From Acidobacteriota bacterium (GTDB taxonomy: Bacteria; Acidobacteriota; UBA890; WLXD01): a stretch of DNA of 64,000 nt. Location: the NCBI GenBank assembly GCA_012103255.1, contig WLXD01000002.1:310001-374000 (forward strand), in the 5' to 3' direction. Under the pieces are notes generated by a model. That model saw nothing but the letters and a program-made list of their open reading frames with translations, ran no database searches and was not told where the DNA came from. Shown here in pieces: positions 44,177 to 58,730 of the stretch (positions are counted from its first letter, which is position 1; each line of letters opens with the position of its first letter). A program made the position numbers and the translations under genes.

Positions 44177-46840
44177 CTACTCGTTGTCAGCGAGCCACGC
44201 GTCGATGTCGGCGACGATCTCTAGTTCAGCGCCTTCGACAGCGGCCGCCACTTCGCGGGCCTGGCGCGCGAAACCGAACGCTTCGCTACGGCTCCCGTCG
44301 CTGGCAACAAGTGCCTTCGCCAGCAGGAACAGATCGCCTGAAACGTCTTGCGCCAGGGCGTTGTCAGAGGCCTGCCAGGCGGCGGATGATCGTCGCAAGT
44401 AGGGCACCGCATCCTCGTAGCGACCCGCCTCGAACAACGCGCGCCCGGTGCCTGACACCGAGAAGATCCGGTAGAAGTGATCCTCCGGGACATACAGGGC
44501 AAAAATGCGATCCGCTTCCGCAAAGTCGAGGATCGCCTGTTCCGGGTCCACCAGGACATTGGCGAAGCCGAGATTGACGACACTCTGAGCCACCATGAAT
44601 CCGTCAGGGCCGAACACCTGCTGCCGCATCTCGAGCGCTTCCTCGTGGTACGGCAACGCCGACTCTCCGTCGAGCATTTCGATGTAGGCGGCACCGATGT
44701 TGGAGATCGCCATCGCCGTCTGATGATGTGGGCCGAGTTCGCGCCGCAGAATCGTTGCCGCCCGCCGGAACAAATCCTGCGCCTCCTGATATCGCCCCGC
44801 GCTGTACTGGGTCGTGCCGAGATTACTCAACGACTTGCCGATCTCGACGTGATCGGCACCGTACACCTCGGTGCGCAGACGCAGCGCCTCGTTGTGCGCG
44901 GCGAATGCTTCCTCGAGGCGCCCCGACTGCTGCAGTCCCGCGCCCCGATTGTTGTAGTACTCGGCGCGCACATACGGGCCGGCATCGGCGGCGGCGATCG
45001 CTGCTTCGGCCAATGCAGCCCAGCGGTCGGCAGCTTCGGCGTTGCCGCGATCGTTGCCGTCGAGCCAGACGAGCAGGTTGAGCGCCCGAATGACGTACTC
45101 CTCATGATGCCCTTCCTCAGCGGCCGTCCATGCTGCGAACAGCGAGGCCTCGGCCGCGTCGAACTCGCCGAGATAGTCCTGCAGGTCACCAACCAGATGC
45201 CAGGCTTCAGCCGCCAGCGGTGCGTAGTCGAACGCGTCGGCCGACACCGCCAACTCCTCGGCGAGCGGCAACGCTTCGCCGGGGCCTGCGCTATCTCCAA
45301 CCACGCGCACCTCGCCCAGCCGTGTCTCCAGCGATTCGAGCTCTGCCAGACGCCCGGGTTCCTGGGGCCGCGCTACCGCGGCGGTGAGGAGGGCCGTATC
45401 GGCACACACGGCGAGAGGCTCGAGGCCCAGCACGGTGTCCGCCGCCCGCGCCAAAGCCGCCGGGTCGCCACCCGCGAGGGTGTTCACAACCGCCTGCAAC
45501 TCCCCGCGGCGTCGATTGAGACAGGTTGTGCGCAGGTCGAGCAGTGCCGGTGACTGCTCGCCTCGGATATTCGTGGCCGCGCACGAGTCCCCGCGCATTG
45601 TGGCCCAGCCATCGGCGTAGCGGTCGAGCGCCCCTTCAACGCGTGCGAATTCCTCGGGCTCGAGCCCGGCGTTGGCGAACGTGGCGCGAAGTTCCCCGGC
45701 GCGGTCCGCATCCCAGATCCCGATCAACTGCGAAACACTATCTGCGCAGAGCGCAGCCGCCGGCTGCAGCCACAACCAACCGGCCACAAGCAGGGCGCCA
45801 CCCGCGGCTGCGGCAATCCACAGATTCGTTGTGGTGGTTGCCGGCTCATCGACCAACTCGTCGAGCAGGGCATCCATCGATTCGAAGCGTTCGCCCGGGT
45901 CAATCGACAGGCTGCGTTCGAGCGCGCGCGCCAGCCCACCCGCCAATGGCGGCTGGTCGGGAGCCACTGGCGGCTGCCCGGCCTCGTAGGTCTGGGCCAT
46001 CGAGGCCAGATCGTTGCCGGAGAACGGTTTGTGGCCATATATCGCCTCCCAAACCGACGCGGCGAAGGCAAACTGGTCGGAACGCGGCCCGAAGCGGCGA
46101 TGCAGCACCTGCTCGGGCGCAATGTAGCCAGGAGTCCCGCTGATGTGGGCATCTCCCGCACCTTCCTCGGTGGCGCGTGCCAGCCCGAAGTCCACCACCT
46201 GGGGCACGCCATCCGCGTCGACGATCACGTTGTCGGGCTTGAAGTCGCGATGCACCAGGCCAGCCCGATGCGCCGCCGCCAGCCCCCTACCCGCCTCGAT
46301 GTAGACGGCGACAATCTCGTCGGTGGTGCGGCCTTCCGACCAGGCACGAAGCGGCGTGCCATCGACAAACTCCATCGCCACGAATACCCGGCCCTCGTGG
46401 GTGCCCACATCGTGCACTCCGACCACGTTGGGGTGGGCTAGCTGGGCGAGAGCACGGGCCTCGCGCAACAGGCGATCCTGGTCGTCGGCACCGGTTGCAT
46501 GCAGGAGCTTCACCGCCACGCGGCGGTCGAGCTGCGAGTCGTAGGCGGAGTACACCGACCCCATGCCGCCTGAGCCGACGTGATCGAGCACGGCGTAGCG
46601 ACCCAGCTCCTGGCCCGGATCCAGGGGGCGACCCTCCACAACCTCGAAGATGCGATCCCACACGGGGCCCACGAGGCCGCCACCCGTGCGCAGCGTGAAC
46701 TCGGGATCAGACCCGGCAACCACCATCAGAGCCCAGGTAACTCTCTCGAGCGCCTCGGCGTCTTCGCTGAACGCCTCTTGCAGCGCCTGAGACCGGTGCG
46801 GATCAGTGAGCGCGCGGAGCAAGGTGCGAATGCGATCCAT
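44177..46840 (-). CDS. Ser/Thr protein kinase with membrane anchor and TPR sensor region
   Basis: An 887-residue kinase. Residues 81-335 form a complete catalytic domain: glycine loop GSGGMGSVY, K111, HRDFKPDN (D199, N204), DFGLA (D217) and GTPGYIAPEQ. A membrane helix spans about 340-358, so the kinase faces the cytosol. Residues about 500-880 are TPR-type repeats (for example YNNRGAGLQQSGRLEEAFAAHNEALRLR), presumably in the periplasm. A short helical region precedes the kinase. The gene starts three bases after the stop of an ECF-like sigma gene. This sigma/kinase pairing is common in Acidobacteriota and Planctomycetes, where the kinase may control the sigma factor. The ligand of the TPR part is unknown. 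Confidence 0.93.
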   Translation of the reverse strand: MDRIRTLLRALTDPHRSQALQEAFSEDAEALERVTWALMVVAGSDPEFTLRTGGGLVGPVWDRIFEVVEGRPLDPGQELGRYAVLDHVGSGGMGSVYSAYDSQLDRRVAVKLLHATGADDQDRLLREARALAQLAHPNVVGVHDVGTHEGRVFVAMEFVDGTPLRAWSEGRTTDEIVAVYIEAGRGLAAAHRAGLVHRDFKPDNVIVDADGVPQVVDFGLARATEEGAGDAHISGTPGYIAPEQVLHRRFGPRSDQFAFAASVWEAIYGHKPFSGNDLASMAQTYEAGQPPVAPDQPPLAGGLARALERSLSIDPGERFESMDALLDELVDEPATTTTNLWIAAAAGGALLVAGWLWLQPAAALCADSVSQLIGIWDADRAGELRATFANAGLEPEEFARVEGALDRYADGWATMRGDSCAATNIRGEQSPALLDLRTTCLNRRRGELQAVVNTLAGGDPAALARAADTVLGLEPLAVCADTALLTAAVARPQEPGRLAELESLETRLGEVRVVGDSAGPGEALPLAEELAVSADAFDYAPLAAEAWHLVGDLQDYLGEFDAAEASLFAAWTAAEEGHHEEYVIRALNLLVWLDGNDRGNAEAADRWAALAEAAIAAADAGPYVRAEYYNNRGAGLQQSGRLEEAFAAHNEALRLRTEVYGADHVEIGKSLSNLGTTQYSAGRYQEAQDLFRRAATILRRELGPHHQTAMAISNIGAAYIEMLDGESALPYHEEALEMRQQVFGPDGFMVAQSVVNLGFANVLVDPEQAILDFAEADRIFALYVPEDHFYRIFSVSGTGRALFEAGRYEDAVPYLRRSSAAWQASDNALAQDVSGDLFLLAKALVASDGSRSEAFGFARQAREVAAAVEGAELEIVADIDAWLADNE

Positions 46841-46843
46841 CGG

Positions 46844-47407
46844 CTATCCCGCCAGCATCGCTTTGAGGGTCTTCTTGCCGCCGCGCCACTCACGCTCGAC
46901 CGTTGAGACCGACACGTCGAGTGCCGTTGCCGTCTCCTCGGTGGTTATGCCGGCGAAGTAGCGGCACTCCACCACGCGCGCTGTTCGTGGAGACTCTCTC
47001 TCAAGCTCCTCGAGCGCCGTATCAACCGACACCACCGTGCTCAGCTCGTCAGTGGCCGCCATGTGTCGATCGGAAAGGTCCGTGCGCACGCGGTCGCCGC
47101 CACGCTTCTGGCGCAGTTGCCCGCGTGCGTAGTCCACGGCGATGTGGCGCATCGCCTGAGCGGAGGCCGCCAGGAAGTGTGTGCGGTCTTTCCACTCGCA
47201 CTCGCCTCCGGCCAACTTCACATAGGCCTCGTTCACCAGGGCCGTTGTGTTCATCGTGGCCCCAGGACTCCGCCTCCAACGTCGCGCGAGCACGCGCAGC
47301 TCCGCATGAAGAACGTCCACGAGTCGATCAAACGCCGCGGGATCGCCCGCGCGGTGGGCCTCGAGAAGCGCGGTGACCTGAGTTGCCGGATGGGGCTCGC
47401 TGGGCAT
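46844..47407 (-). CDS. ECF-like RNA polymerase sigma factor (Sigma70_ECF type)
   Basis: A 187-residue sigma factor. Region 2 runs through FDRLVDVLHAELRVLARRWRRS and HFLAASAQAMRHIAVDYARGQ, and region 4 is VVECRYFAGITTEETATALDVSVSTVEREW. The conserved NTTALVNEAYVKLA stretch is typical of the Sigma70_ECF subgroup of Planctomycetes and Acidobacteriota. ATG 47407 gives the expected N-terminus. No anti-sigma gene is beside it; the Ser/Thr kinase directly downstream is the likely control partner. Confidence 0.92.
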   Translation of the reverse strand: MPSEPHPATQVTALLEAHRAGDPAAFDRLVDVLHAELRVLARRWRRSPGATMNTTALVNEAYVKLAGGECEWKDRTHFLAASAQAMRHIAVDYARGQLRQKRGGDRVRTDLSDRHMAATDELSTVVSVDTALEELERESPRTARVVECRYFAGITTEETATALDVSVSTVEREWRGGKKTLKAMLAG

Positions 47408-47495
47408 GCGCCGGATTCTAGCGCGACGAAGGGGCTGCGACGTAGGGGCTGGGGCCATGCGGTTCTTTGTTTTGGCGCGGCCGCTCCGCTCGCAA

Positions 47496-48859: not shown

Positions 48860-50509
48860 CTAGGTTCCTGGCAGCCTGCTGAAGCGGCTGAAGCGATCGC
48901 GCATTGCCTGCTGCGACATCAGCAATGAGGTGGACGGGAGGATCACTACCTCGTCTCCATCCTGCAGGCCCGAGATGACTTCCGTGAATTCCCAGTCCTG
49001 CACGCCGATCATGATCTGGCGGGCAACCATCTGGTTGTTGGCGTCCATCACAAACACGATCGCGGCTTCGCGTCGGCCGATTCCGAAGGAGTCCATACCG
49101 GTGGCCGTGCCACCACCACCGCCTCGGCCACCGCCGCCCTGGCCGCCGCCAGCGAAGCGCGCGCGCATCTGCTGGGTGAAGCGGTCGCGGGATTCCTTGG
49201 TGAAGCCGTTCATGTATTCCTCACGCTCTTCACGGCTCATGCCGCGCAGCTTCGTGAAGTCGATGTCTTCGTTCGAGAGTTCGCCCTCGCCGTCTTCACC
49301 TTCGGCATCGTCAGCCTCGCCCTCAGCTCCGGCTTCACCCTCAGCGGCTTCGCCTTCCTGAGCACCAGCTTCCTGATCCGGTCGGCCAGGCCGCTCGCCG
49401 TCACCACCGCCGGCTGCACGGCCACCACCGGGGCGTCCGCCGCCGGGTCGGCCCGCATTGGCGGCCATCGCCTCGCCACCCACGGCTCCGGCGCCAGTGG
49501 GCTGTGCGGCAAGAGCATCACGATCGAAGGGCAACCCGAGAAGGTTCGCCACGGTGCCGGCATCGCCCATGCTTTTCACTGCCTCATTGGGCACCGCGAG
49601 CACCTGGGGGCGCCGGTGAATAATCACTTCCACATCGGCGTTCATGCCGGGCAACAGCAGGCCCTCGGCGTTGTCGATCATGGTGAGCACGGGGAACGTG
49701 GTCACTTGCTGGCTCAGCACCGCCTGCGGCTCGATCTTCACCACCTGGCCGCGGAACTCGCGGCTCGGGTAGGCCTCCACCGTGATGTTCACGGGCAGGC
49801 CGGCCTTCACCTGGCCGATGTCGATCTCGTCCACCAAGGTGCGCACCTCGAGAGTAGAGAGGTCCGCCATGTCGACGAGCGTCGTGCCGCCCTGCACCGA
49901 GCTGGTGGAGGACTGAATAATCGTGCCGATCTCGACCGTCTTGGCGATAATCGTGCCGGCGGTGGCAGCGCGCACGGTGGCATCGTCGAGACGTTCCTGA
50001 CGAATCCTGACGTCGGCTTCGGCACGCAGCAGCTGGCTCTGGGCCGTTGTGAAGTTCTGCTCGGCGGTGTCGAGGTCGCGGAACGACACCAGATCCTGCG
50101 CGTGCAGGTCCTTGGTGCGGTCGTAGTCGCGCTCGGCCACCGAAAGGCGCGTCTGCGCCGAGTTGAGGTCGGCGTCGGCCTGCGCAAGCTCCTCTTCGAG
50201 TGTCTCGGTGTCGACCTGAGCAATGAGATCGCCCACGGCCACCACGTCGCCCAGATCAACGGGCATCTCGAGAATCTCGCCGGCCGCCTTGCTCTTCACC
50301 TGCACGATGCGCACAGGTTGGAGGGTGCCGGTGGCGGATACGGACACCGTGATGTCACGCACGGAGATGGCGCGGGTGGGCACCTCGCCCACGCTCGCTT
50401 CTTCTTCGGCCGCCTGCTGGGCCTGGTAGTAGCCGTAGCCATACCAGGCGCCGCCCGCGAGCACGGCGATCACCACGAGTCGTTTCAGTGCCTGAACGGC
50501 CTTCTTCAC
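48860..50509 (-). CDS. MacA/HlyD-type periplasmic adaptor with Gly/acid-rich insertion
   Basis: A 549-residue adaptor linking an inner-membrane pump to an outer-membrane channel. Residues 1-28 hold the membrane anchor. VRIVQVKSKAAGEILEMPV begins the biotinyl-lipoyl domain, a coiled coil spans about 100-180 (EELAQADADLNSAQTRLSVAE), and beta-barrel strands follow to about 315. Residues about 315-480 are an unusual low-complexity insert (RPGGGRPGGGRAAGGG, then EGEAAEGEAGAEGEADDAEG, then GGGQGGGGRGGGGG). It is followed by the membrane-proximal domain (IMIGVQDWEFTEVISGLQDGDEVVI). No permease or ATPase is beside it; the only MacB-type gene is 9 kb away and shares its upstream GTAAA box. Alone here, it may work with that permease. 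Confidence 0.9.
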   Translation of the reverse strand: MKKAVQALKRLVVIAVLAGGAWYGYGYYQAQQAAEEEASVGEVPTRAISVRDITVSVSATGTLQPVRIVQVKSKAAGEILEMPVDLGDVVAVGDLIAQVDTETLEEELAQADADLNSAQTRLSVAERDYDRTKDLHAQDLVSFRDLDTAEQNFTTAQSQLLRAEADVRIRQERLDDATVRAATAGTIIAKTVEIGTIIQSSTSSVQGGTTLVDMADLSTLEVRTLVDEIDIGQVKAGLPVNITVEAYPSREFRGQVVKIEPQAVLSQQVTTFPVLTMIDNAEGLLLPGMNADVEVIIHRRPQVLAVPNEAVKSMGDAGTVANLLGLPFDRDALAAQPTGAGAVGGEAMAANAGRPGGGRPGGGRAAGGGDGERPGRPDQEAGAQEGEAAEGEAGAEGEADDAEGEDGEGELSNEDIDFTKLRGMSREEREEYMNGFTKESRDRFTQQMRARFAGGGQGGGGRGGGGGTATGMDSFGIGRREAAIVFVMDANNQMVARQIMIGVQDWEFTEVISGLQDGDEVVILPSTSLLMSQQAMRDRFSRFSRLPGT

Positions 50510-50609: not shown

Positions 50610-53120
50610 CTACGATCCCGCCGACCCGTACCAAACGAGCCCCGCCCATCGGTGATAAGCACCCGGATAGCGATTCCTCAACTCTGCACGCATGCTCGCC
50701 CAGGTGGTCGACGAAGGGATTGTTTCATTCGACGAATACATCAACTCCGCCACCTCTGCCGCAGTCTGATCGTCGATTGCCCAGAGGGTCCCAGCGACAG
50801 CCCGGCCACCGGCTGAAAGGAAGGCGTCGGCGATGCTACGGCCAAGTTGGGGCGTCGCGCCACCGGTCTCGGCCGGCCGGCCGGTATGGCATCCGAGGAG
50901 CACTACGACGGTGCCCGGAAGATCTAGTCCTCCCAAGTAGTCGCTATCCAACAGAACCCCTCGCGCAAAGGTGAGGCCGGCTGTCCCCGCCACCGTTCCG
51001 CGCCATGTGTGGCCGCCGAAGTGGAGCACAGAAGCGCTTGGTGCCATCTCGCGGAACGCGGCGACGGTCGCTTTGGGCCCAAGGATGCGTGCCGTCGGCC
51101 CCATGGCTGCCGCCTCCGCGCGCGCGTCCCGACCAGCGCGCGGAATGAACGCCACGCGTGACCCGGTTCGCGATGGGTAGTTCGCCGCTCTTGCGTGTCC
51201 CAGAGAGAGAGCTCGGGCGACAATCAATCCATCAACATGATCCTCGAAGACCGCCTCGAACGGCACCGCCACCATCACGGAATTGGGAACGACGATCAGG
51301 CGTACCGGCACCGATACCGACCCACGAAAGAGTTCCGCGCCTAGTACTTCTCGGAACAGGTGGCCGCTCGCTCGGGCTATCTGTGCCGCCGAACCGCGCG
51401 TTGCGACTAACGATGAATACCTCAGCAGGAGAGCTCGTGCCTCGCTTGACGACATCGCCGAGACGCCCTCGACGCTAGCCAGGCTAGATCGGTACCACCA
51501 ACGCAGCTCGGCGCCGAAATCACCGAATACCAACACGCCCACATCTTCAGGGAGCCCCGCCTGGATGGACGCAATCTCCCCGATCGACGAAGCTCCGCCT
51601 CGCCCCTTCTCCAGCGCCAACAACGCATCATCGGGCCGCCCTCGCTCAGCGTTCCATTCCGCGAGGGCGCTGTAGCTGATTTCCACTCCTGTCGGCGGCC
51701 GTTCCGAAGTTGTATTCCGAGCGGTCCAACCGTCCACGCGTTCGGCTGCCTCTAACTCCGAGAGATAGACCGAACCGAGCACCTCCGTGCCGTCCGCGGC
51801 TGTCTGCTCTCGATGGACTGCCGTCGTTGCCCCCAGACTCCGCGCCAGCAACCGCACATCCTGTGGCAACGTCGCAGGTCGGTTCTCGAAGACGAGTCGC
51901 TCGATTCGCGATAGAGCTCGCGTCGAATCCCCTCGATGGACCGCAGCGCGCGCAAGAGCGGCTTCAACCCGGAGCCTCGTCGAGTCGGTAGTCTCCAACT
52001 GCGACGCTTCCTCCAACGCCGAGCTAGTAGTCGCGTGGTGGCCGCGCGCACGAGCACCGATCGAGAAGAGAACGAGACTCCTGGCCAGCGCCTCATCATC
52101 CTTGAGACGCCGCGCCCCGGAAACCGCCCGTTCAATCAACCTGTCGAAATGCGCCCAAGCACCTGCCGCAGCCAAGATGGGGACGATTCTGTCGGAGAGT
52201 TCGACCGCTGACGCGGGATCACCGCTGACAACACTGGACGCTAACCTCCGAGCACCGGCCAGGGCCTCGCCTACCTTCCCATCGCGCCACTGCGCCGCGA
52301 CCGCACGCGATTCGCACTCAGCTCGCGAGCGAGTCAAGATCGCGGGTACGTCCTTACACGGGAGTAGCGCTTCGACGCCGATCCGAGTGTCGAGATCCGC
52401 CAACTGCCCGATTGCTCTCACCAGCCCGCGAGCCGCGTCTCGCCCTCCAGCGGAGCGAGCCGCTTCGGCAACGAGCCACTTCGCATCAGCACTGCCACCG
52501 GGGCGGGACTCGATCGCCGCCATCAAGAGCAGCGAAAATGTGCGCGCGGTAGAGTCCCGAACACGCACCGACTCCGCAAACAGCCGTCGTACGGCTCTCG
52601 ATCCCGCCCGCGGATTGACGGCGGCTAGCAACACCATTGCCCTGAATTGGTGTGAACGTCCGTGCTGTGTCAATTCGACTCGGCGAACGGCGTCGAATAT
52701 TTTCGCCCAAAGTGCCGGCCGAACCGCTCCGTAACTACGCATCTGTTCGGCAGCGGCGATGGTCGCCGCGACATCCGACGGTGCCCCGGTCGGCGGAGAA
52801 GCTTGGTACAGGTACGCGATCTCGGCCGCAGCGATTCGGGCGTCGACGCCGTGCAAGAGGGGAACGACCGCAGCGAACTCCCGCCCCCGGGCGGTGGGCA
52901 GGCACCGCCAGTTTGCCATGTAGACAACGTCACCTTGACCGCATGTCGATGACGCCAAGCGAACGGCCGAGCGCCATTCAGGACGCGTTGGCGGGTGCCT
53001 TGCGGCGGAAACGAGCACGACAGCAACCACGAACAGACCGAGGCGCTTCCTCAACGGAGCACGGGGCGAGGCCCACTGCCTGCTAGTGGCTTGTCTCCGG
53101 CCCAGGCGGTCACTGACCAA
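50610..53120 (-). CDS. CHAT-domain caspase-like protease, membrane-anchored or exported
   Basis: An 836-residue protein. A hydrophobic segment near the N-terminus (LGLFVVAVVLVSAA) suggests export or anchoring. The middle (about 80-520) is helical and repeat-like. The last 300 residues are a CHAT domain: strands SVPVRLIVVPNSVMVAVPFEAVF, then VLHFGGHTW with H704 and VVVLLGCHTGRP with C744, the expected His/Cys dyad of caspase-like peptidases. The start is TTG 53120, 65 bases after the stop of a small membrane protein gene, itself overlapping a sigma factor gene. The three appear to form one operon. Substrate is unknown; the small membrane protein is a natural candidate. Confidence 0.85.
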   Translation of the reverse strand: MVSDRLGRRQATSRQWASPRAPLRKRLGLFVVAVVLVSAARHPPTRPEWRSAVRLASSTCGQGDVVYMANWRCLPTARGREFAAVVPLLHGVDARIAAAEIAYLYQASPPTGAPSDVAATIAAAEQMRSYGAVRPALWAKIFDAVRRVELTQHGRSHQFRAMVLLAAVNPRAGSRAVRRLFAESVRVRDSTARTFSLLLMAAIESRPGGSADAKWLVAEAARSAGGRDAARGLVRAIGQLADLDTRIGVEALLPCKDVPAILTRSRAECESRAVAAQWRDGKVGEALAGARRLASSVVSGDPASAVELSDRIVPILAAAGAWAHFDRLIERAVSGARRLKDDEALARSLVLFSIGARARGHHATTSSALEEASQLETTDSTRLRVEAALARAAVHRGDSTRALSRIERLVFENRPATLPQDVRLLARSLGATTAVHREQTAADGTEVLGSVYLSELEAAERVDGWTARNTTSERPPTGVEISYSALAEWNAERGRPDDALLALEKGRGGASSIGEIASIQAGLPEDVGVLVFGDFGAELRWWYRSSLASVEGVSAMSSSEARALLLRYSSLVATRGSAAQIARASGHLFREVLGAELFRGSVSVPVRLIVVPNSVMVAVPFEAVFEDHVDGLIVARALSLGHARAANYPSRTGSRVAFIPRAGRDARAEAAAMGPTARILGPKATVAAFREMAPSASVLHFGGHTWRGTVAGTAGLTFARGVLLDSDYLGGLDLPGTVVVLLGCHTGRPAETGGATPQLGRSIADAFLSAGGRAVAGTLWAIDDQTAAEVAELMYSSNETIPSSTTWASMRAELRNRYPGAYHRWAGLVWYGSAGS

Positions 53121-53185
53121 ACCAGTTCACCGGAAACGTCTGAGATCGCCGGAATCTCGAGCGACGATTCATCGGCCGATACAGT

Positions 53186-53536
53186 TCAACTGAATACCAG
53201 CTGAGCATCGAGCGTCCAGACCTCAACAGAATAGTGGGTCGCTCTGGCGAACAGTGTCCATCGGACCACAGGCGTTCCAAGTGTCTCCAGCCGAGCCGTC
53301 AACGAATCCGACATGCCGCGCTGGCCTACGTCTGGACCGATCGCACGAGGCCGAAGACCGACACCGACGGAGAGGATGGCAAACACAGCTACCAACGCGA
53401 CACCCGCTACACCCCTCCTTGCCGAAGGCTCCCGGCGCACCGGGTGCTCGAAGATCTCGTCGGCCATGGTCTGAAGGTACGCGTCCAGCGATCGCAACTC
53501 GGCGCGAACCACATCGTCGCTAGGACTTGCCGGCAA
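53186..53536 (-). CDS. Small single-pass membrane protein, candidate anti-sigma factor
   Basis: A 116-residue protein with an N-terminal cytosolic helix region (DDVVRAELRSLDAYLQTMADEIF), one membrane helix at about 43-60 (VAGVALVAVFAILSVGVG) and a short outer domain. It starts at TTG 53536 (or GTG 53512), overlapping the end of the sigma gene, and precedes the CHAT protease gene. No zinc-binding anti-sigma motif (HxxxCxxC) is present. Size, topology and position suggest an anti-sigma or a protease-cleaved tether, which is inference from context. Confidence 0.7.
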   Translation of the reverse strand: MPASPSDDVVRAELRSLDAYLQTMADEIFEHPVRREPSARRGVAGVALVAVFAILSVGVGLRPRAIGPDVGQRGMSDSLTARLETLGTPVVRWTLFARATHYSVEVWTLDAQLVFS

Positions 53537-54374
53537 TTCGGTCCTCCAGGTCGGCAGGCGAGAATCCCTCGCACACCAAAGAGTCGCGCAGGGCCGCTAG
53601 TCCGCGAGATTGAATCTCGTACACGCGTTTGTACGGTTGGATACCAAGACGTTCTGCCACGCGACGAGCCGTCCAACCTCGGCGATACCGCATCTCAAGG
53701 ACGGCCCGCGTCGTACCGGGCAGTCTCGCGACCGCCGTCCTGAGCGCGTCGACCAGGGCGCCACCGTCCAGCTCCGCTTCTGGTCTTGGCTCAGCATCGG
53801 CGAACTGAAACCGGGGACCGTCGTGACCGTCCCTAGCACCTACCGACTCCTCACGGGATTGGCGCGCTAGGACTCGCCAACGTTGATCGGGCGAGAGCTG
53901 CGCTTCGACCTCACCGACTAGTCTCTCGACTTCAGAGCGTGTTCGCCCACGCCCCTCACAGCGAAGCAACCCTAGGATCTGTTCGACCGTAAACCCATGC
54001 CAGTATCGGTACTTGAAAACCTCCGCGTGGGTCGCGGAGAGACGCTCGATGGTCCGGTACAGCCGACGACGTCCACGATGGGTCCTAATCCACTCTCGAC
54101 AGAGGTTTAGCGTCACCGTGGCCAGCCAGGTGGTGAAACGGCACTCCCGGCCGCCCGTCTCTCCACGGAATTGGCGCAACCTGCGACAGTCATCGGCAAG
54201 GAGCCGCGCGCATACGTGCGCATACATGTCCATCCGCTCGTCGACATCTGCCGTGAAGCGTCGCACGCATCCCAGAATGAACCCGGAATACTCAACGAGG
54301 AATTGCTCCCGATTGTCGGCCAGCGCGAGGACATCGACTTGGCTCAAACCGACGGGTGAGGCCTCGTCCACCAA
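53520..54374 (-). CDS. ECF-type sigma factor with long inter-domain region
   Basis: A 284-residue sigma-70 family protein. Region 2 lies at about 20-105 (FLVEYSGFILGCVRRFTADVDERMDMYAHV and FTTWLATVTLNLCREWIRTHRGRRRL) and region 4 at about 215-275 (LPGTTRAVLEMRYRRGWTARRVAERLGI). The linker of about 100 residues between them is far longer than in ordinary ECF factors (usually 20-60). TTG 54374 is chosen because GAGGAGG lies six bases upstream; GTG 54371 is next. It is followed by an overlapping small membrane protein gene and a CHAT protease gene, probably its control partners. Confidence 0.83.
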   Translation of the reverse strand: MVDEASPVGLSQVDVLALADNREQFLVEYSGFILGCVRRFTADVDERMDMYAHVCARLLADDCRRLRQFRGETGGRECRFTTWLATVTLNLCREWIRTHRGRRRLYRTIERLSATHAEVFKYRYWHGFTVEQILGLLRCEGRGRTRSEVERLVGEVEAQLSPDQRWRVLARQSREESVGARDGHDGPRFQFADAEPRPEAELDGGALVDALRTAVARLPGTTRAVLEMRYRRGWTARRVAERLGIQPYKRVYEIQSRGLAALRDSLVCEGFSPADLEDRIAGKS

Positions 54375-54893: not shown

Positions 54894-56780
54894 TCAGGGG
54901 GTCCGAATCGCCGCCTCGAGCTCTTCGACGGCAACTCGAAGCACCGTTGCGCGTTGGCGTTCGTCCATCACATCGCGCAACTCGAAACGGGCCTCCGCGA
55001 GCTTGCGGTTGTCGGCGTCGCGGAGGACGAGCTTGCCGCGGGCCTCTATCGCAGCCCCTCGGCGGCGGACGCGGTCGAGATCGAGTTCCACGCTCAGCTC
55101 ATAGGCGTCCGGGGAAGTCGCGACTGCGAACGTTGAAGACCTCCAGATCGCGTCATAGGTCGCGGTTAGCAGCGCCGGGAATGCCGTCGTCTGTGCCAGC
55201 AGGTCGTCAGCGCCGCGAGCGCTCAGCCACACGCGCGGCAGTGCCGTCTGCGGCAACGGCTCCAGGGTGCGCGGCGAGACCTCCTGCAATCGGTTCACCA
55301 GTTCTTCCACGTCTGCGCCTGCTTCGCGCGCGGCCAGCGCATGCTCCCACGCCGCTTCGGGGTCCCTGAGGTCCAGCAACAGGTTCGCCAGCCTCTGCCG
55401 GAGCCCCGGCAACCACGGATCGAGGTCGGCGGCACGAGCAAGATCGCCGGCCGCATCTTCGAGCCGCCCGAGGCGCTGCAGGGCAAGCCCTCGCCCGTAG
55501 TGCGCAGGACCCAGATCACGGGCGCTCGCGGTTGCGCGCTCGAACGTAGAGAGCGCCGCCTCATTCTCTTGAGCCGCTAGCTGGCGGAAGCCTCTGCGCG
55601 CTGTTTCGACGGCCATACTGGTTGTGCGCGCCGAGCCCCCGTATCCGCGAGAGGGCGCGAGAACCTCGTGGTCGGGCCTTGCCACGGTGACCTCGACCTC
55701 GCGCTCAATCAGCGGGTCCGCGCCTGTCGTGCCCGCCGGAACATAGCCGATCACGTAGTGGGCGCGTAGCGCGCCTGTTAGACGCGCCAACGCTTTCCGC
55801 ACTTGCGGATGATCTGGTGCACCGGGCCGGCCTCGGAACACGGCCCCACCGGTGAACTCGGTCAGGCGGTCGAACGCTCGAAGGGTCGCGTACAGCCGAG
55901 CGCCGGACGACGAACCCGGCTCGGCAGCCAGAATGAAGTAGGGAACCGCTACGCCCCAGGCCGACAGCATCGCATCTTCGAGCGAACTGTAGCTCCTGTG
56001 GTCGTCGCCATCCGTCACCAACACGATGCGTTCTGGGATCCCGGTCGCCAACCGTTCCTCCAGAGCGTCGAGCTCGCATCTCCCCATCGTCGGCACCGGT
56101 TGGTTGGCTTTGCCCCTACGCTGGTGCCCGAACCAATCCAGCGCCCGCTCGGCATCCCGCACCTGCTCGGAGGCGGTCGCGCTCGGGGGCAGGCCACGGG
56201 CCAGTCTCCGTTCCTGGAGCTGATCCGAGGCCGCGATGATCGCGTCGAAGATAGCCTCGTTTGAGAGAAGTGGCAGAGTCGCGAGGGATTCGCGCAAGAA
56301 TGGGTCCCCAGGGTGCCCCCAGATGCCTCCGAGCACCCCCTCCCCGCGGAAAGGCATGAGGAGCACGCAACTCCCGGGATGGAGGCTGTCCAACAACTCA
56401 CCCGCCATCTCGCGCATGGGCCAGAGGTTCATGCTGCCGCTCGCGTCTACCGCGACAACCAGTTCGCCTGGCTCCCAAACCGGCGGAACGAAAACCGAGA
56501 TCGGCCTCACTTCGCCGTCCTCGATAACCCGAAAGTCCTCCACGGTGAGATCGGTAGCGGGCATGTTGTCCGTGAGGACCATCACATGGATGACAACCAA
56601 CTCCGAGGTGGTGCCGAACGTTGGTCGTTCCTGCGCAACGCAGGGTAGCGAGACTGCAAGAGTCGCAAGAGCCGCACCCCCTAGTGCCGTCGCCAACCTG
56701 TTTTGGGACCATGGTCCCCACATCGCGCTGCCCGCGCTAGGTTGACTGCCTGCCGCCTCTTCCTGTCGGATGTCCTTCAT
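54894..56780 (-). CDS. Exported VWFA-domain protein with TPR-like C-terminus (copy 1)
   Basis: A 628-residue protein of the VWFA-related acidobacterial class. The signal peptide ends near SLPCVAQ. The VWA fold begins with ERPTFGTTSELVVIHVMVLTD and holds an intact metal-ion site DASGSMN (D112, S114, S116). The second half is TPR-like (FERATASARDLGPAHYGRGLALQRLGRLEDAAGDLARAADL), then a unique region. The gene is followed upstream by a close paralogue in tandem. VWA proteins bind partner proteins through the metal site. Function and ligand are unknown. ATG 56780 (or 56723, giving a neater signal peptide) is the start. Confidence 0.88.
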   Translation of the reverse strand: MKDIRQEEAAGSQPSAGSAMWGPWSQNRLATALGGAALATLAVSLPCVAQERPTFGTTSELVVIHVMVLTDNMPATDLTVEDFRVIEDGEVRPISVFVPPVWEPGELVVAVDASGSMNLWPMREMAGELLDSLHPGSCVLLMPFRGEGVLGGIWGHPGDPFLRESLATLPLLSNEAIFDAIIAASDQLQERRLARGLPPSATASEQVRDAERALDWFGHQRRGKANQPVPTMGRCELDALEERLATGIPERIVLVTDGDDHRSYSSLEDAMLSAWGVAVPYFILAAEPGSSSGARLYATLRAFDRLTEFTGGAVFRGRPGAPDHPQVRKALARLTGALRAHYVIGYVPAGTTGADPLIEREVEVTVARPDHEVLAPSRGYGGSARTTSMAVETARRGFRQLAAQENEAALSTFERATASARDLGPAHYGRGLALQRLGRLEDAAGDLARAADLDPWLPGLRQRLANLLLDLRDPEAAWEHALAAREAGADVEELVNRLQEVSPRTLEPLPQTALPRVWLSARGADDLLAQTTAFPALLTATYDAIWRSSTFAVATSPDAYELSVELDLDRVRRRGAAIEARGKLVLRDADNRKLAEARFELRDVMDERQRATVLRVAVEELEAAIRTP

Positions 56781-56912: not shown

Positions 56913-58730
56913 TCAGGCCGTCCGGATCGCCGCTTCGATCTCTTCGACGGCACCGTGAAGCACCGATGTGCGGTGGTCCTCGTCCATCGCGTCGCGCAAC
57001 TCGAAGCGGACCTCTGCGAGTTTGCGGCTGTCATTGCCACGCAGTACCAACCTGCCGCGGACCGAAATGCCCTCTCCTCTACGGCGGACGCCGTCGACCT
57101 CGAGAACGAGGGTCCAATCCGAATCTTCCGGAGCCGTGGCCGGGGTGAGAGCCGGCGAGTGCCAGACCGCGTCGGTCACGGTGGTCACAAGGGCAGGCAA
57201 CACCGCTGCCTGCGCCTCCAGGTTACGACCGCCACGCAAATCCAGGCTTAGCCAAACACGTGGTGGTCCGACCCGCTCGAGTGGCTCTAGCGTCCGCGGG
57301 GCCACGGCCTGCAATCGCTCGACCAGGTCGGAGACATCCATTCCCGCACCACGAGCGCCGAGCACGTGGTCCCAGGCAGCTTCAGGGTCGCCCAGCGCGA
57401 GCGCCAACTCGGCCAATCGCACGTGAAGTCCCGGCAACCAGGGATCCAGGGCTACGGCGCGAGACAGCGGAGCCAACGCCTCCTCGTCGCGGCCCAGGCG
57501 CTGCAGCGCGATTCCCTGCCCATGGTAGGCGGGCCCTAGTTCTGGATCGGTTGCGATGGCGCGTCCAAACGTAGCGATCGCAGCGGCGTCGCGCCCTGCC
57601 GTGAGTTCGCGGTAGCCCCGGCGCGCGATTTCCACGGCCGCGCCCGTGGTGCGGGCAGCCCCGCCGTAACCGCGAGACGGCGCCAATACCTCATGGTCGG
57701 GCCTCACAACGGTGACTTCGATCTTGCGTTCAATCAACGGATCATCGCCTGCCTTGCGGGCCGGAACGTAGCCGATTACATAGTGCGCCCGCATGGCGCC
57801 GATCAGGCGCAGCAAAGCTTCCTGTACGCGTGGATGGTCTGGTGCGCTCGGCCGCCCCCGAAACACGGCCCCGCCTGTGAACTCCGTGAGCCGGTCGAAC
57901 GCTCGAAGGGTCGCGTACAGCCGAGCGCCGGACGACGAACCCGGCTCGGCCGCCAGAATGAAGAACGGCACCGCGGCGCCCCAGGCCGTCAGCATGGCAT
58001 CTTCGAGCGAGTTGTAGCTCGTGCTGTCGTCGCCGTCGGTGACCAGCACGATGCGTTCCCGGATGCCGGTCGCGGACCGCTCTTCGAGATGGTCGAGCTC
58101 GCAGCTCCCCATCGTGGGCACCGGTTGGCTGGCTTCGCCCACCCGCTGCGGCCCGAAACGATCGAGGGCCCGCTCGGCATCCGGCACCTCCTCGGACGCG
58201 GCTGTGTTCGGGGGCAGCCCGCGGGCCAGTCTCCGCTGCTGGAGTTGTTCCGAGGCCGCAATGATCCCATCGAAGATCGCGTCGTCTCCGTCCCTGAGCT
58301 GCAACGCCGCGAGGCCCTCGCGCAACAAAGGGTCCCCAGGGTGCCCCCAGATGCCTCCAAGCACCTGTTCACGGAAAGGCATGAGGAGCACGCAACTCCC
58401 GGGATGGAGGCTGTCTAACAACTGGCCAACCATCTCGCGCATGGGCCAGCGGTTCATGCTGCCGCTCGCGTCGAGCGCGACAACCAACTCGCCTGGCTCC
58501 CAGACCGGCGGGACAAAGACCGAGATCGGCCGTTCCTCGTCGTCCTCGAGGACACGAAAGTCCTCCACGGTGAGATCGGTAGCGGGCATGTTGTCCGTGA
58601 GGACCATCACATGGATGACAACCAGCTCTGACGTGGTGCCGAACGTTGGTCGTTCCTGCGCCTCGGAGGAAAGTGCCGCGAGCAGGACTCCCAGCGCGGC
58701 CGCCGCGATCACCTTCGTACGTCCAGTCAC
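56913..58730 (-). CDS. Exported VWFA-domain protein with TPR-like C-terminus (copy 2)
   Basis: A 605-residue paralogue of the neighbouring gene. Signal peptide VIAAAALGVLLAALSSEAQ, then the same VWA domain with DASGSMN at about 90-96 and the same TPR-like tail (GQGIALQRLGRDEEALAPLSRAVALD). It differs from copy 1 mainly in the last 150 residues, which may give different binding properties. The start ATG 58730 fits the signal peptide. It lies 132 bases upstream of copy 1 on the same strand, so a common transcript is likely. Confidence 0.88.
   Translation of the reverse strand: MTGRTKVIAAAALGVLLAALSSEAQERPTFGTTSELVVIHVMVLTDNMPATDLTVEDFRVLEDDEERPISVFVPPVWEPGELVVALDASGSMNRWPMREMVGQLLDSLHPGSCVLLMPFREQVLGGIWGHPGDPLLREGLAALQLRDGDDAIFDGIIAASEQLQQRRLARGLPPNTAASEEVPDAERALDRFGPQRVGEASQPVPTMGSCELDHLEERSATGIRERIVLVTDGDDSTSYNSLEDAMLTAWGAAVPFFILAAEPGSSSGARLYATLRAFDRLTEFTGGAVFRGRPSAPDHPRVQEALLRLIGAMRAHYVIGYVPARKAGDDPLIERKIEVTVVRPDHEVLAPSRGYGGAARTTGAAVEIARRGYRELTAGRDAAAIATFGRAIATDPELGPAYHGQGIALQRLGRDEEALAPLSRAVALDPWLPGLHVRLAELALALGDPEAAWDHVLGARGAGMDVSDLVERLQAVAPRTLEPLERVGPPRVWLSLDLRGGRNLEAQAAVLPALVTTVTDAVWHSPALTPATAPEDSDWTLVLEVDGVRRRGEGISVRGRLVLRGNDSRKLAEVRFELRDAMDEDHRTSVLHGAVEEIEAAIRTA

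Follow-up and report, generated by a model that had tools for sequence, protein, structure and literature searches.

Can a CHAT protein control a sigma factor where no CRISPR system is at hand, and from which side of the membrane would it do so? This question is raised by a 64,000-nucleotide stretch of Acidobacteriota DNA (hereafter the window), on the minus strand of which a sigma factor gene is followed by an ORF for a one-helix membrane protein, the two overlapping by 17 bp, and then by a CHAT gene. A first-pass annotation had read the locus as a new, CRISPR-free counterpart of Craspase, in which CHAT directly frees the sigma factor from a membrane-tethered inhibitor. The three genes it described are real, with domain matches for the sigma factor and CHAT, and the evidence collected here leads us to a different arrangement. 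We give roughly even chances to the reading that the locus is a transmembrane signalling operon, related to the CHAT-bearing anti-sigma factor DdvA but split into separate genes.

The sigma factor and its interrupted membrane partner

The features of the locus are as follows.

48860..50509, minus strand: HlyD-type membrane fusion protein (PF16576), likewise the next gene in genome G003 and the same neighbour in locus L005
50610..53054, minus strand: exported or membrane-anchored TPR-CHAT protein, 814 aa (836 from TTG 53120); PF12770, E=1.2e-13
50889..50891, minus strand: catalytic Cys codon, C722 (C744 in the first-pass numbering), invariant in alignment A3
51009..51011, minus strand: catalytic His codon, H682 (formerly H704), invariant in alignment A3
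52998..53042, minus strand: hydrophobic N-terminal signal/anchor segment of CHAT, such a segment being present in 14/14 aligned CHAT proteins
53051..53185, minus strand: 44 codons and a stop that complete the anti-sigma frame and encode the second half of its Fn3-like domain (translation, alignment)
53186..53188, minus strand: premature in-frame TGA, inside the Fn3-like domain (translation)
53186..53536, minus strand: membrane anti-sigma-like ORF as it stands, 116 aa, ending at the premature TGA (translation, family profile)
53360..53410, minus strand: single transmembrane helix, residues 43-59 (hydropathy 2.7, positively charged N-terminal flank)
53520..54374, minus strand: sigma-70 family (ECF-like) sigma factor, 283-284 aa; TIGR02937, E=1.1e-21
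53568..53765, minus strand: C-terminal sigma region 4, residues ~203-268; PF08281, E=2.4e-11, model pLDDT ~90
53898..54056, minus strand: second, degenerate sigma-4-like domain, residues ~106-158; PF08281, E=1.4e-4 for the segment alone
54072..54314, minus strand: sigma region 2, residues ~20-100; PF04542, E=4.5e-4, conserved in alignment A5

The sigma factor, which starts at TTG 54374 or GTG 54371 and has an orthologue of 58-61% identity in the same-genus genome G003, belongs to the ECF/sigma-70 family, with regions 2 and 4 both present and an extra sigma-4-like domain in between. Its ECF-like identity was thus correctly recognized at first pass, but the linker noted for its length contains this second domain, for which AlphaFold2 predicted helices. 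In profile-profile comparison, the middle segment matched the C-terminal sigma-4 domain with a probability of 94% (E=1e-7) and sigma-2 with only 2%; sigma region 3 was rejected as its identity, since the comparison favours sigma-4. A search for an ECF-type promoter upstream of nine sigma genes returned a single isolated match, and no motif common to them. Upstream of the sigma gene, the window and G003 share an 11-bp element (E=0.042), at differing distances.

The membrane protein had been described as a 116-residue single-pass protein; the single helix and the overlap with the sigma gene stand, but the length is not natural. Judging from its translation, the protein is a longer anti-sigma relative (~161 codons) that an in-frame TGA interrupts; the part beyond this codon can be aligned with intact relatives, and a profile search passes through the window's own frame with '1 TGA'. 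The N-terminal part of the family profile matched the anti-sigma proteins RslA (5.9e-6), DdvA (2.4e-4), and RsiW (2.8e-4), as well as ChrR, and its C-terminal part matched Fn3 (tenascin-R, 5.4e-4). The features of zinc-binding anti-sigma (ZAS) proteins found are a single transmembrane helix, gene overlap with the sigma factor, and homology to anti-sigma domains, although the match to solved domains is owed mainly to zinc-bearing family members. Because the HxxxCxxC zinc motif of the other aligned members is absent from the window and G003 proteins, sigma binding by these two tails is unproven; we infer that the window's zinc-less tail would nonetheless bind its sigma factor.

Because of the premature stop, only half of the outer domain would be made in this genome, and the switch may be altered or broken, unless the stop is a sequence error. 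A reading that we consider possible, if somewhat unlikely, is that the switch is decaying here, the stop ruining the outer domain and leaving the sigma factor free or the operon silent, or else that the stop is such an error. In favour of this reading, the TGA lies in frame within the Fn3-like domain and the gene is intact in the sister genome G003; against decay, the sigma and CHAT genes are intact, and identity to G003 after the stop (12/40 residues) resembles that before it (15/56), which makes long-standing decay unlikely. Decay in this one genome is, moreover, compatible with a split DdvA-like operon as a statement about the family.

Linkage, fusions, and catalytic residues of the CHAT protein

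As CHAT alone, used as a query of the named genome collection, found no relatives, these were gathered with the sigma profile. Conservation of the sigma/membrane protein/CHAT linkage had been set beforehand as a test, and the outcome was favourable: a CHAT gene adjoins a sigma gene of the window type in 10/14 Acidobacteriota genomes, nine of them having co-directional sigma/membrane anti-sigma/CHAT operons with overlapping or closely spaced genes and one a divergent arrangement. None was found beside the sigma gene in the other four, in two of which the contig ends. When loci were instead sampled by CHAT score alone, a sigma/zinc-finger-anti-sigma pair lay within 1.5 kb of CHAT in 13/60, and such a pair occurred anywhere in the locus in 14/60, compared with 2/39 control regions (p=0.023). 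The sigma/anti-sigma/CHAT gene order therefore exceeds chance. The linked cases of this sample are mostly convergent rather than co-transcribed, and in the phylum sample most CHAT genes lack a neighbouring sigma gene; CHAT proteins were found in 183 of the 297 Acidobacteriota genomes searched.

In at least ten further loci (for example, L169 and L202), mostly beside a sigma gene, a zf-HC2 zinc finger, one transmembrane helix, TPRs, and CHAT are encoded on one ORF, such that the single helix separates the zinc finger from CHAT. In the CHAT tree, the split forms are nested among the fused ones.

The CHAT domain of the window scored 51.6 bits against a family cut-off of 24, and the start of the protein is most likely 53054 rather than 53120, as the TTGA there also holds the stop codon of the full anti-sigma frame. 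The claim of an intact catalytic dyad was borne out: H682 and C722 are invariant in 14 aligned relatives, and the dyad is intact in 11/11 CHAT proteins from operonic loci, as in every one of the 89 scorable CHAT proteins of the sample. We infer only from these residues that the window protein would be catalytically active. Four fused relatives (L203, L204, L207, and L210) keep the CHAT fold and have lost both catalytic residues, so not every version needs catalysis. These proteins, and the covalent joining of CHAT to the anti-sigma domain in fused forms generally, favour an alternative in which CHAT senses or co-represses without proteolysis: by binding a ligand, or else the Fn3-like domain, the periplasmic TPR-CHAT protein would switch the conformation of the anti-sigma protein, and no cleavage would occur. 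We judge this unlikely, given how consistently the dyad is kept in the window, the operonic loci, and the wider sample.

Less probable again is that CHAT is an output of the system, the sigma/anti-sigma pair controlling expression of an exported CHAT protease with some other cell-surface target. In many loci CHAT is indeed convergent or divergent to the pair, as a regulon gene might be; however, such a role fits poorly with anti-sigma-CHAT fusions in ten or more loci, with split forms nesting among fused ones, and with the failure to find a shared promoter motif.

A structure model of the CHAT protein, of medium confidence (pLDDT 68), was compared with known folds using Foldseek, giving Csx29 (8eey_B, E=6.7e-13) as the best match, along with separase and DdvA (E=4.8e-10). 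From the N-terminal export/anchor segment and the topology of the fusions, CHAT probably faces the periplasm, which would put it out of reach of the sigma-binding side, unlike Craspase acting on Csx30; a membrane-anchored cytoplasmic CHAT was rejected on the same two grounds. The Craspase-like direct switch proposed at first pass, in which a cytoplasmic CHAT cuts the inhibitor on the side of the membrane where the sigma factor lies, is accordingly very improbable, for although Csx29 is the best fold match and cleaves the sigma inhibitor Csx30 in Craspase (PMC10028731), all 14 aligned CHAT proteins have an N-terminal export/anchor segment, the fusions have one helix separating the zinc finger from CHAT, and the genome lacks Cas1 and the neighbours examined any cas gene.

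Proposed mechanism and known systems

The most likely mechanism is that a periplasmic TPR-CHAT protein cleaves the anti-sigma outer domain and a site-2 protease then releases the sigma factor. The sigma factor would be held by the short cytoplasmic tail of the one-helix protein, with the Fn3-like domain as its outer part, and the exported or inner-membrane-anchored TPR-CHAT protein would act on the outer side. A signal, presumably sensed by the TPRs, would activate CHAT to cleave, or otherwise act on, the Fn3-like domain; an RseP-type site-2 protease could then clear the stub and free the sigma factor. An M50 site-2 protease is encoded in the genome. More tentatively, exported CHAT may constitute a new site-1 protease class for regulated intramembrane proteolysis (RIP) across Acidobacteriota, cleaving the outer domains of sigma inhibitors in trans in split operons or in cis in fusions, with the split or fused state changing repeatedly.

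RIP-controlled zinc anti-sigma systems (RseA/DegS/RseP, RsiW) resemble the operon in that the anti-sigma protein crosses the membrane once and carries a sensory domain on the outside, and in the presence of an M50 site-2 protease; their site-1 protease is DegS or PrsW, whereas the candidate here is a CHAT cysteine protease. Craspase of type III-E CRISPR (Csx29, Csx30, CASP-sigma) shares the TPR-CHAT fold with its His/Cys dyad (best match 8eey), and its CHAT protein is likewise paired with a sigma factor and an inhibitor. However, Craspase requires Cas7-11 and RNA, whereas no cas domain was found among ten locus proteins scanned and no Cas1 in the genome; its inhibitor is Csx30, whereas the candidate here is a one-helix, anti-sigma-type membrane protein with CHAT probably periplasmic.

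The closest precedent is instead DdvA (8rot), a solved CHAT-bearing transmembrane anti-sigma factor. The DdvS/DdvA system of Myxococcus xanthus (PDB 8rot, 8rw5, and 8rlz; DdvA features are taken from PDB titles and other papers) also combines a sigma factor, a membrane anti-sigma factor, and TPR-CHAT; both the CHAT fold and the anti-sigma family profile match DdvA, and its zinc finger-TM-CHAT order recurs in the Acidobacteriota fusions. DdvA carries anti-sigma and CHAT parts on one polypeptide, whereas the window has two separate genes, an anti-sigma protein whose outer domain is Fn3-like and which lacks the zinc motif, and, unlike DdvS, a sigma factor with a second sigma-4-like domain. DdvS has an antiphage island under its control (PMC12288465); no CRISPR locus turned up near the window genes, and PADLOC gave no defence-system match for the sigma factor, CHAT, or a fusion. 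ECF54 sigma factors, too, have CHAT genes nearby, for whose products a proteolytic mode of action has been put forward before (PMC8999054), but ECF54 is described as having no anti-sigma factor (PMC8999054), whereas the window has an anti-sigma relative between sigma factor and CHAT. The layout, CRISPR-free as far as its neighbourhood shows, is not wholly new, being preceded by DdvA (8rot) and the ECF54 proposal (PMC8999054); relative to DdvS/DdvA, inhibitor and CHAT are placed on separate genes.

For the Acidobacteriota, these links give a subset of their abundant CHAT proteins a connection to sigma factors, made by anti-sigma proteins in split and in fused form, and with it a testable role as proteases or sensors of envelope signals that switch transcription. 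The interrupted inhibitor gene of the window and the fusions without the dyad offer natural tests of the need for cleavage. Such a role would also join Craspase, DdvA, and separase-type proteases to a broader use of this module that does not depend on CRISPR.

Composition of the three-gene locus

The locus had been proposed in the first-pass annotation to be a Craspase-like switch built from a sigma factor, a 116-residue membrane protein, and a CHAT protease. Pfam and NCBIfam searches confirmed the identities of the sigma factor and the CHAT protein:

53520-54374, minus strand: sigma-70/ECF-type gene (Pfam, NCBIfam)
53186-53536, minus strand: one-helix membrane ORF, overlapping the sigma gene by 17 bp
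Start most likely 53054, minus strand: CHAT protein of 814 residues (Pfam, NCBIfam), following the membrane ORF

The catalytic residues assigned earlier, H704 and C744, are correct; they correspond to H682 and C722 in the 814-residue product and are invariant across 14 aligned relatives. A hydrophobic signal or anchor segment opens all 14 of the aligned CHAT proteins. The structural model of the window protein (pLDDT 68) matches Csx29, the CHAT protein of Craspase (E=6.7e-13), as well as separase and DdvA (E=4.8e-10), a transmembrane anti-sigma factor of Myxococcus xanthus that the PDB lists as a CHAT domain-containing protein.

The membrane protein, previously taken to be 116 residues long, is a longer protein cut short. 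Translation continues in frame for 44 codons beyond the TGA at 53186-53188, and the stop of this full frame overlaps a TTG codon, making 53054 the most likely CHAT start. In a same-genus sister genome (G003), the gene order is as in the window and the membrane protein is intact at 175 residues; the continuation matches it as closely as the stretch ahead of the TGA does (12/40 versus 15/56 identities). An independent profile search also read the window frame through one TGA, and it is this alignment and read-through that establish the truncation. The premature TGA is either a real stop or a sequence error in the window assembly.

In the phylum's other families, relatives of the membrane protein combine an N-terminal HxxxCxxC zinc motif with a single membrane helix and, at the C-terminus, a domain bearing Fn3-like motifs. 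The N-terminal end of the family profile matches the solved anti-sigma domains of RslA, DdvA, RsiW, and ChrR, and its C-terminal end matches Fn3 domains. This zinc motif is gone from the window and G003 proteins, which retain a tail of ~40-50 residues ahead of the helix; judged from sequence, they are relatives of anti-sigma factors and putative sigma binders.

The long linker reported between sigma regions 2 and 4 holds a second, degenerate sigma-4 domain. The Pfam sigma-4 model matches this segment alone (E=1.4e-4), and profile-profile comparison pairs it with the C-terminal sigma-4 domain (94% probability, E=1e-7) versus 2% for sigma-2. The same layout recurs in aligned sigma factors from other operons; the AlphaFold2 model of the window protein is of medium confidence (pLDDT 73, pTM 0.35).

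Directly upstream of the sigma gene lie two closely similar tandem proteins with TPR matches (54894-56780 and 56913-58730, the second with a weak VWA match), probably a tandem duplication. At 44177-47458, a further ECF sigma gene (PF07638) directly precedes a Ser/Thr kinase-TPR gene.

Linkage across Acidobacteriota

The sigma profile matched 14 of the 297 Acidobacteriota genomes searched. CHAT adjoins the sigma gene in 10 of these 14, bearing out the conserved linkage sought in the first-pass annotation: nine are three-gene operons read in one direction, their genes overlapping slightly or separated by short gaps, and one is divergent. Contig ends intervene in two of the four remaining genomes. 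Both catalytic residues are kept in all CHAT proteins of operonic loci (11/11).

CHAT genes abound in the phylum (183/297 genomes, often in several copies), and the majority of those sampled lack a sigma neighbor. Among 60 loci picked by CHAT score list alone, a sample leaning to high-scoring CHAT genes, 13 had a sigma/zinc-finger-anti-sigma pair within 1.5 kb of CHAT. Such a pair occurred anywhere in the locus in 14/60 cases versus 2/39 control regions taken from other parts of mostly the same genomes (p=0.023). The linked cases were mostly convergent, not one operon. G003 also contains a second sigma/zinc-finger membrane protein pair (L005:487-7931), with a CHAT lipoprotein ~2.6 kb off and two opposite-strand genes between; this lipoprotein sits within the fused clade of the CHAT tree.

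Anti-sigma-CHAT fusions and topology

One control region yielded an accidental find (L169:6227-10488), wherein a sigma gene overlaps a single gene encoding zf-HC2, a TM helix, TPRs, and CHAT in 1128 residues. A targeted search recovered at least nine further loci with such fusions, and, of the fused proteins scanned, four scored above the Pfam cut-offs for zf-HC2 as well as for CHAT. Split genes (L213, L217) are nested among fused ones in the CHAT tree, in which many nodes are weakly supported. Because only a cytoplasmic zinc-finger domain could contact the sigma factor, and a single helix lies between it and CHAT, a location of CHAT outside the cytoplasm is strongly implied for the fusions. 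In four fused members (L203, L204, L207, whose start is uncertain, and L210), the catalytic His and Cys are both gone, which suggests a role for CHAT that does not involve proteolysis; such members keep alive the alternative that CHAT is a non-proteolytic sensor.

Relation to known systems and proposed switch

Craspase includes a CHAT protease that cuts an inhibitor of a sigma factor (PMC10028731). Inactivation of the anti-sigma factor DdvA, by a signal not yet identified, activates its sigma factor DdvS (PMC4374960), and an antiphage island is under DdvS control (PMC12288465). Proteolytic action, without an anti-sigma factor, has been proposed for CHAT genes near ECF54 sigma factors (PMC8999054). 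Set against these systems, the window operon is thus a split form of the DdvA-like layout; its parts are not one polypeptide, so it is not a DdvA-type member, nor is it a Craspase. A search of the source genome gave no Cas1. We found no description of sigma/anti-sigma/CHAT operons in Acidobacteriota in the literature searched, which took in a minority of subscription papers.

The loci establish or strongly imply the gene associations and topology of a proposed switch, for which we infer binding, cleavage, signal, and regulon. An M50 (site-2 protease) gene is present in the source genome. The operon is best read as an envelope-signal switch, wherein a probably periplasmic TPR-CHAT protein would act on the anti-sigma protein's outer domain, with sigma release then completed by a site-2 protease.
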